NCBI GenBank assembly: GCA_002011125.2
Contig: MTMF02000009.1
Span: forward strand, 609,095-673,094
Source: Candidatus Hydrothermarchaeum profundi
GTDB taxonomy: Archaea; Hydrothermarchaeota; Hydrothermarchaeia; Hydrothermarchaeales; Hydrothermarchaeaceae
Reading direction: 5' to 3'
DNA: 64,000 bases
Part shown: piece after piece, positions 17,586-19,506 of the stretch
How positions within the stretch are numbered: the stretch's first letter is position 1
Layout of the letters: each line of letters begins with the position of its first letter
Notes under the pieces: generated by a model
Told to the model about the DNA's origin: nothing
The model's database searches: none
Seen by the model: only the letters and a program-made list of their open reading frames with translations
Made by a program: the position numbers and the translations under genes

Positions 17586-18575
17586 TTATGCATCAGCCAT
17601 GCTGTTTACTTTTCGAAAAATAAGTGCGGTTGCCTCTAGGGTTACTGATAATTCTGTGTCTGGCTTCCATAGAAGATTAGAGGAACACTTAGGACATTTA
17701 TAATCTAACTTAAAAATCTCTTCGAATGATAGTATATAATTATCTTTTTCGCAAATAAAATAGCCATCTTCAATCTCATTTACTAATTTCATAAGTTTTT
17801 CCGCATTTTTTTGGCAAATTTTCTTTAATAAAAATTTTATTCTTTCTCTATTTATTGAACACTTTATATTTTCTTGTTTTAAGGCTATATTGTCAGTATA
17901 CGGGATTTTAATAGAAATAAATCCTTTATCGTAGAGTGAATGTAATATCTCATTAGCCTTTTTAGGGTCCTTCCCAGTTTTTTGGATGAGTTCAGTATAT
18001 TTAATTTCTCGGTCAATAGCCTTCAATATTCTTTTTTCGTCCTCGCTTTCTACTAGTTCAACAATGTCAATAGTTCCCCCGTTTCGGTAGGCATTAAAGC
18101 AGTATTCTAAAAATTTCTTATTAATATTACATTTGGTGGAGATAGTGAAAATTATATCCCTAATTTTCTCTTCTTTCATGGTTTTTATACACATTTTTTT
18201 GCTATGAGCCCTTCTCTCCCTTAGCGGAGTATTTTCCCATTTCTTTAAACTTAAATTCTTAAAATAATCTTTTCCAAAAATTTCTTTCTTTTTTTTGGTC
18301 GCTTGGAGGTGATATTTTAGCTCTTTTTGTCCATCTACAAATACTTCGATATTGTCTTTTATACTTTCATAATCTATTTTAGTTTTTTTAAGAATTATAT
18401 CTAAACTTTTCTTTGGAATCCAATTTGATGTTTTACCTATCCTCCTAAATGTATGGAAAGGTACGCCGCAGTTGGAAGCCGCCATTTTGTGGCTTTTAAA
18501 ATTCTTTACATATCTTTCTTTTATTTCAAACCAAACATCACTATCTTTAAAGTATACCCAAACTTGGGTTGACAT
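17586..18575 (-). CDS. Unknown protein with winged-helix-like and C-terminal zinc-knuckle segments
   Basis: 329 residues, lysine-rich, not recognised as a family. Residues about 20-75 may form a helix-turn-helix (VPFHTFRRIGKTSNWIPKKSLDIILKKT). Residues about 190-240 look like a winged helix (YTELIQKTGKDPKKANEILHSLYDKGFISIKI). Near the C terminus CPKC (YKCPKCSSNLLW) is the kind of zinc knuckle seen in TFE-like factors, but the second ligand pair is lacking. A DNA-binding or transcription-associated role is inferred. It is divergent from the KaiC-like gene across a 64-base spacer that carries a 13-bp direct repeat, so the two genes are probably co-regulated. Confidence 0.6.
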   Translation of the reverse strand: MSTQVWVYFKDSDVWFEIKERYVKNFKSHKMAASNCGVPFHTFRRIGKTSNWIPKKSLDIILKKTKIDYESIKDNIEVFVDGQKELKYHLQATKKKKEIFGKDYFKNLSLKKWENTPLRERRAHSKKMCIKTMKEEKIRDIIFTISTKCNINKKFLEYCFNAYRNGGTIDIVELVESEDEKRILKAIDREIKYTELIQKTGKDPKKANEILHSLYDKGFISIKIPYTDNIALKQENIKCSINRERIKFLLKKICQKNAEKLMKLVNEIEDGYFICEKDNYILSFEEIFKLDYKCPKCSSNLLWKPDTELSVTLEATALIFRKVNSMADA

Positions 18576-18592
18576 TTTCTCAATTATAATTT

Positions 18593-18626
18593 AATTATGT
18601 GCATATACTTGTAAATTATGTGCATA
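18593..18626. repeat. Two perfect 13-bp direct repeats in a divergent promoter
   Basis: AATTATGTGCATA occurs at 18593-18605 and 18614-18626. The start-to-start distance is 21 bases, two helical turns, so both copies face the same side of the DNA. They fill most of the 64-base spacer and overlap the probable TATA regions of both flanking genes. This is the usual geometry of an operator for a cooperatively binding regulator such as a ribbon-helix-helix protein, and one gene beside it encodes such a domain. Confidence 0.7.
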
Positions 18627-18639
18627 AAATTTTTATTCT

Positions 18640-19506
18640 ATGGAAAAATATAAGATATCTATGAAAAAAAAGAGGATTCACACTACACTTAGTGAAGAAG
18701 CGTATAGGATACTTCAAAAATTTGAAGGTGAGGCGGGAGGTAAAAATGCAGTATTGGAAAAAGCATTGCATAATTTAGATAAAACACGTTATAAAGCAAA
18801 AATATCTTTAAGAAGTTTCATATCTACTATCAGAAGGATTGAGAGCGGTACACCCGGATTTGATAACTTAATTGAAGGAGGTATCCCAGAAGGATCTGTA
18901 GTAGTTATTACAGGACCTCCAGGAACCGGAAAAACAACATTTTCTTTACAGTTCCTGAAAAGAGGAGCTGAACTAAAAGAAAAAGGGTTATATTTCTCAT
19001 TTGAAGAAGATGCCGAGCAACTAGTGCAACAGTGTTTTAGATTTGGATGGAACTTAAGCAAGTATGTTGAAGATGGTATAATAGAAATTTTCGGTTTTTC
19101 ATTATTAACTTCCGAAGAAATTGCAGATATTTTGGAGAGTTATAACCCAAAGCGCGTAGTTTTTGATTCTATAAATATTTTTTCAAACATGCAGGATTTC
19201 AGGAAAAGCTCCTCATGGAGGGCGGTTCTTAAAACTTTAAAGAAAAACAAGATTACTAGCTTTATGATAACTGAAAAGCAATATGGTTTAGAGGCCAAGA
19301 GATTCGATAATTTTGATTTTATGGGAGATGGCCTAGTCTTTATGGACAGAGTTGTAAGTGAAAAAGAGGATATCTTCTTAATTGCTGTAAAAAAGATGAG
19401 AGGTACTAAAATAGATGGAAGACCAAAACTTTTCAGGTTTAGTGAGAAGGGAATTGAAGTGAGTGACATATCCCCTATAGGTTTTACGATTTTCAAAGTC
19501 GGATGA
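18640..19506 (+). CDS. Ribbon-helix-helix + KaiC/RecA-like ATPase fusion
   Basis: 288 residues. The N terminus (about 11-45, KRIHTTLSEEAYRILQKF...) fits a ribbon-helix-helix DNA-binding domain. It is followed by a KaiC-type RecA domain beginning RRIESGTPGFDNLIEGGIP. Walker A is GPPGTGKTT at 92-100, and the Walker B strand is VVFDS at 173-177. KaiC-like archaeal proteins are ATP-dependent signalling or regulatory proteins, some controlling flagella or phosphorylation circuits. The fusion suggests an ATP-responsive transcription regulator. The adjacent 13-bp repeats could be its own operator. Function is inferred from domains only. Confidence 0.8.
   Translation: MEKYKISMKKKRIHTTLSEEAYRILQKFEGEAGGKNAVLEKALHNLDKTRYKAKISLRSFISTIRRIESGTPGFDNLIEGGIPEGSVVVITGPPGTGKTTFSLQFLKRGAELKEKGLYFSFEEDAEQLVQQCFRFGWNLSKYVEDGIIEIFGFSLLTSEEIADILESYNPKRVVFDSINIFSNMQDFRKSSSWRAVLKTLKKNKITSFMITEKQYGLEAKRFDNFDFMGDGLVFMDRVVSEKEDIFLIAVKKMRGTKIDGRPKLFRFSEKGIEVSDISPIGFTIFKVG

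Follow-up and report, generated by a model that had tools for sequence, protein, structure and literature searches.

A predicted pair of operator sites accompanying an archaeal gene for a ribbon-helix-helix–KaiC fusion

Two palindromes between divergent genes

In the 64 kb stretch of DNA analysed here (the window), which its gene content and relatives mark as archaeal, a gap of 64 bases (18576-18639) separates two divergent open reading frames, one on the minus strand (17586-18575) and one on the plus strand (18640-19506). The gap contains an exact repeat, which raises the question of what the repeat is for and which of the two genes it serves. The original prediction had described a 13-mer recurring with a 21 bp period, and this was borne out, as AATTATGTGCATA is found without mismatch on the plus strand at 18593-18605 and again at 18614-18626. 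The further description as a plain direct repeat held for the exactness of the copies and failed for the asymmetry of the unit, since each copy reads as an almost perfect palindrome with two bases at its centre, TATG-NN-CATA (here TTATG-TG-CATA), and the object is therefore better called two palindromes. The core ATGTGCAT lies at 18597-18604 in the first predicted operator site (site 1) and at 18618-18625 in the second (site 2), and the centres are 21 bp, or two helical turns, apart. Counted from 18640, the sites stand at -43 and -22.

A repeat of this kind might arise by chance in an A+T-rich intergenic region such as this one, and the counts are partly compatible with that reading. When two mismatches were allowed, the 13-mer was no rarity (three matches against 2.61 expected). 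In the organism's own genome (2.19 Mb, 97.65% complete), the pair pattern ATGNNCATN{10,15}ATGNNCAT had its sole occurrence in this gap, with one-mismatch places elsewhere at C9:346887 and C9:1911140, but the backward control pattern was likewise found once, so that the genome count of the pair pattern alone is not striking. The element TTATGTGCATA occurs three times in the genome, twice in this gap. Against chance, when the gap was shuffled 5000 times with its dinucleotides preserved, only 5 of the shuffled sequences held an exact repeat of at least 13 bases, and the window held no other such repeat at offsets of 13-51. The weightiest evidence against it came from promoters of other organisms, as described in the next section, and taken together these results leave coincidence a very improbable explanation.

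The plus-strand gene encodes a KaiC-type ATPase domain preceded by a short N-terminal domain, and is referred to as RHH-KaiC. Its start was probably placed seven codons too early by the mechanical reading frame from 18640; the sequence points to the ATG at 18661 (Met8, MKKKRIHTT), because the orthologues at loci L101 and L105 open with MNKQRIHTT and MTKQRIHTT, respectively. In the aligned orthologues the N-terminal methionine precedes the histidine of IHTT by 5-7 residues, and Met8 precedes it by six, which agrees with L101 and L105 to within one residue. With the gene thus at 18661-19506, the true gap would be about 85 bp, and both sites would lie upstream of its plausible core promoter. The ATPase region (about residues 68-275, 18841-19464, plus strand) matched PF06745 with an E-value of 1.5e-43 and 149.3 bits against a cut-off of 26.6, and contains a P-loop and the glutamate pair E122-E123; G92, G95, G97, K98, E122 and E123 were invariant in an alignment of 14 orthologues. 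Identity with the circadian clock KaiC was rejected, as the protein has a single domain in place of tandem CI-CII and scored 75.1 bits with TIGR02655 against a cut-off of 546.25.

The N-terminal domain (residues 9-51 of the mechanical reading frame, 18664-18792, plus strand) had been predicted to be of the ribbon-helix-helix (RHH) class, and this assignment gained support from a comparison of profiles. A profile of 14 orthologous N-termini was aligned by hhalign with eight CopG proteins over 39 columns, giving a score of 24.85 (P 3.5e-5, Prob 71.7%) that none of 100 column shuffles reached, the best of them scoring 16.69. The first 50 residues had no credible Pfam match; across Pfam, NCBIfam and PHROGs the domain returned weak matches only, among them an Arc-like repressor PHROG for two of the 14 sequences and CcdA for one. 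CopG (E 0.48) and CcdA (E 1.0) were among the weak top matches in a PDB search, in which RET kinase entries ranked between the two were taken as chance. On the strength of its sequence profile, we take the domain to be an RHH domain of the CopG/Arc/MetJ type, a fold in which a beta-strand is followed by helix A, a turn with glycine and helix B within about 45 residues. A structure prediction for RHH-KaiC from two sequences (mean pLDDT 37.1) was too poor to use.

The site pair beside orthologues of RHH-KaiC

Orthologues of RHH-KaiC were found at E ≤ 1e-45 in 49 of 392 genomes of the phylum of genome G050, mostly in family f36. This family was named Methanosarcinaceae through locus L057, from Methanosalsum, which is listed under Methanosarcinaceae and grouped with the f36 rows L025 and L099. 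A narrow peptide-pattern scan of genome contigs had yielded two loci, L057 and L058 (Halopseudomonas), of which the latter, at 25% identity, was left out of the locus set. A 14-row profile at E ≤ 1e-75 recovered 11 of 394 archaeal genomes, namely the organism's own and ten of f36. Of 23 genomes of its own phylum, one had the gene at E ≤ 1e-32, which suggests, though only that, transfer of the gene from a Methanosarcinaceae-like donor. The placement of the window sequence in the tree was weak, loosely near L101, L105, L107 and an outgroup row. A viral or plasmid origin was considered and rejected, the viral and plasmid sequences searched containing no relatives of either protein encoded beside the gap.

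Upstream DNA was compared at 51 loci with an orthologue, of which 50 came from 49 genomes and the last was L057; 44 belonged to f36. The window's own form of the motif, ATGNNCAT, was present within 120 bp at 37 of the 44 f36 loci (shuffle mean 3.75, maximum 12) and in two copies at 14. A looser motif, RTGNNCAY, chosen after reading the orthologues, occurred at 41 of the 44 and at least twice at 38. Pairs of RTGNNCAY at 19-22 bp in the upstream 130 bp were found at 31 f36 loci and in none of 11,810 segments taken from these loci as controls; a further four loci had a pair at 32 bp, or three turns, which brings the total at either spacing to 35 of 44. Sites 43 or 44 bp apart were seen at 13 loci through a third site closer to the start, and the common spacings therefore lie near two, three and four turns of the helix. 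At least one member of each of the six f36 genera carries a pair at 20, 21 or 32 bp. The two central bases vary freely (GG, AA, TT, TG, TA and others). The cores were better conserved than the spacers in g82 (0.87 versus 0.57) and g65 (0.94 versus 0.71), figures inflated by the choice of loci for having the pair, and the downstream flank of site 2 was equally conserved in g82 (0.86). The arrangement that defines this conserved operator, in which a pair of RTGNNCAY sites separated by two or three turns precedes the RHH-KaiC gene, is shared by the window.

The pair is not universal. It was missing from the f36 subgroup g49 loci L061, L063 and L089, and no regular 20 bp pair was found at the g82 loci L066, L070, L073, L077 and L079. 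Outside f36 it was present at two of seven loci, L103 (f74) and L107 (f70), and absent from L059, L101, L104, L105 and L106, of which L101 and L105 stand closest to the window sequence in the tree. Genome G447 carries two RHH-KaiC copies (L061 and L089), with the pair at neither.

The weightiest comparison used a position matrix to which each of the six f36 genera contributed equally and the window not at all; the whole 64 kb was scored with it for pairs spaced 20, 21, 31 or 32 bp. The best pair in the window was 18597/18618 at 22.6 bits (10.2 for site 1 and 12.4 for site 2), the next best reaching 6.2, and shuffling the upstream region 1000 times never gave a score as high. The repeat was thus recovered from the promoters of other organisms, and a chance origin would have to account for the selection of exactly this pair. 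For L103 and L107, too, none of 1000 shuffles each was as good. Among the matches listed, from 20 of the 49 orthologue genomes with coding and intergenic positions pooled, the pair pattern was commoner than its backward control, an excess to which we attach no weight.

The neighbouring genes differ, with pyrC upstream at those f36 loci that were read, the TFE-like gene in the window and others at L103 and L107. RHH-KaiC is the common item, and the sites thus go with it. We predict from these sequence comparisons, and consider it very probable, that the repeated stretch represents two DNA switch sites that travel as a pair with the RHH-KaiC gene in archaea. The IHTT strand hardly varies among 52 orthologues (H in 52, the first T in 52 and the second in 51), as would be expected if a DNA-contacting strand and its site were kept together.

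Proposed control of RHH-KaiC and of the divergent gene

Dimers of RHH proteins recognize short palindromic DNA through their paired strands, and many such proteins regulate the genes that encode them; KaiC proteins form ATP-dependent rings (hexamers). Because two or three palindromes on the same face of the helix would suit a protein that carries several RHH dimers, we propose, with a probability of about 0.68, that the repeat is an autoregulatory operator of the RHH-KaiC gene, formed by two palindromic sites to which RHH dimers would bind. Each palindrome (consensus RTGNNCAY, here TATGTGCATA) would suit one dimer, and the 21 bp spacing would bring dimers of one oligomeric KaiC-type protein onto one side of the helix, immediately upstream of the core promoter. 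RHH-KaiC probably controls its own gene through these sites, presumably by repressing or tuning its transcription, and repression appears more likely than activation. By analogy with other KaiC proteins, assembly of the KaiC domains would need ATP and would set the number of RHH dimers joined and hence the strength of binding to the operator. A more elaborate version, in which an ATP-assembled ring with three RHH dimers clamps two or three same-face palindromes (20-21, 31-32 or 43-44 bp apart), so that the energy state sets expression of both RHH-KaiC and the TFE-like gene, is speculative and we consider it doubtful.

The same conserved sites might instead be bound by another regulator, perhaps one resembling TrpY or some different helix-turn-helix protein that recognizes a box like ATGTACAT, with RHH-KaiC a mere target. 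The absence of the sites from some orthologue loci would fit this, and so would a pair of ATGTACAT boxes at 20 bp spacing upstream of a trpC-like gene in an f36 genome (G265, L132, 1501-1528). At 22.8 bits that pair is as strong as the one in the window, which means that other regulators may use similar DNA; the gene downstream looks by eye like trpC, for indole-glycerol-phosphate synthase, and the pair is reminiscent of what we take to be the TRP boxes of TrpY (presumably TGTACA). The central bases of the conserved sites, however, vary freely from locus to locus where that box is fixed, and an RHH domain is encoded by the adjacent gene itself. In addition, the exact pair pattern occurs in its own genome at this locus only, which favours local self-control over a regulon, although there are places with one mismatch. 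Control by a separate regulator thus appears unlikely, and autoregulation by RHH-KaiC is the reading that we prefer.

The minus-strand gene (17586-18575) encodes a TFE-like protein, with an N-terminal extension of ~170 residues, then a winged helix resembling that of TFE-alpha and a zinc ribbon that is degenerate, having three of the four cysteines. It matched TIGR00373 with an E-value of 2e-8, far below the cut-off (33.9 bits versus 149.5), and the TFE structure 6pln in the PDB with 3.6e-5. Given this score and the incomplete ribbon, it was rejected as a true transcription factor E alpha; the canonical TFE is located elsewhere in the genome, at C9:1872598. A structure prediction from one sequence (mean pLDDT 47.1) was too poor to use.

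It had been predicted that the repeat overlaps both promoters and that one binding event could switch both genes. Site 1 occupies -29 to -22 relative to the start of the minus-strand gene, which is where a leaderless archaeal promoter would have its TATA region. As site 1 sits in the likely core promoter of this gene, its occupancy would probably hinder transcription in that direction, and the TFE-like gene may be repressed together with RHH-KaiC. Such an effect differs from a true bidirectional switch, in which the repeat would have evolved to co-regulate the two genes as a unit. The divergent arrangement over 64-85 bp and the place of site 1 would fit such a switch, but many loci have the sites beside RHH-KaiC without a TFE-like gene, which indicates that the pair did not arise for co-regulation. 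Of the 394 archaeal genomes searched at E ≤ 1e-11, the other 393 yielded no counterpart of the TFE-like protein. A tblastn search of the 51 orthologue loci at E ≤ 10 returned a single match of 11 residues (E 8.2), and no relative carrying both genes was found among the genomes, viral and plasmid sequences searched. Judged by these searches, the TFE-like gene is no conserved partner of RHH-KaiC and may have been captured secondarily, and an origin of the repeat as a two-gene switch is improbable.

Relation to known systems and a further site in the genome

The closest parallels are small RHH repressors such as CopG, the copy-number repressor of plasmid pMV158, which represses its own synthesis. 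RHH-KaiC resembles them in the RHH domain, over 39 columns, and in the short palindromes by its own promoter; unlike CopG, it is archaeal and fused to a KaiC-type ATPase, and its two or three sites are 20-21, 32 or 43-44 bp apart. The operators of MetJ and Arc consist of palindromic boxes of ~8-10 bp that bind one RHH dimer each, cooperatively. MetJ boxes abut at 8 bp, whereas those of RHH-KaiC are two or three helical turns apart. Among archaeal RHH proteins, CdrS and CdrL are regulators of cell division (PMC7439475). CdrS is a single-domain protein of 55 residues, reported there to have a perfectly conserved beta-strand, and CdrL has a zinc ribbon; an ATPase is present in neither. RHH-KaiC would share with them the conserved strand of an archaeal RHH domain and differ in its ATPase.

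With KaiC and the single-domain archaeal KaiC-like ATPases (PF06745; KaiC_arch_3, TIGR03880), RHH-KaiC has in common the ATPase domain, the P-loop and the glutamate pair; it differs in the RHH domain in front, and its scores fell short of the cut-off for each of the named NCBIfam KaiC subfamilies listed. Makarova and colleagues are said to have proposed in 2017 that KaiC-like ATPases are archaeal signalling hubs. Passages found by full-text search for KaiC and ribbon-helix-helix in archaea described neither the RHH-KaiC fusion nor its operator, although the work of 2017 may already list the fusion. A subfamily that combines a DNA-binding domain with a conserved predicted site would allow the connection of a KaiC ATPase with a promoter to be put directly to experiment, which bears on the little-understood action of these ATPases on transcription.

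Another intergenic ATGTGCAT site is present in the same genome at L113 (1493-1537; C9, near 1911141), with the near-match TTGCACAT 21 bp on. It lies downstream of a gene that by eye resembles prolyl-tRNA synthetase and upstream of a small open reading frame. Rfam gave no match in L110 or L113. Two interleaved perfect inverted repeats at L113 (1675-1684/1717-1726 and 1684-1694/1730-1740) form a pseudoknot-like arrangement that falls, at 1675-1740, in a small open reading frame or in an RNA.
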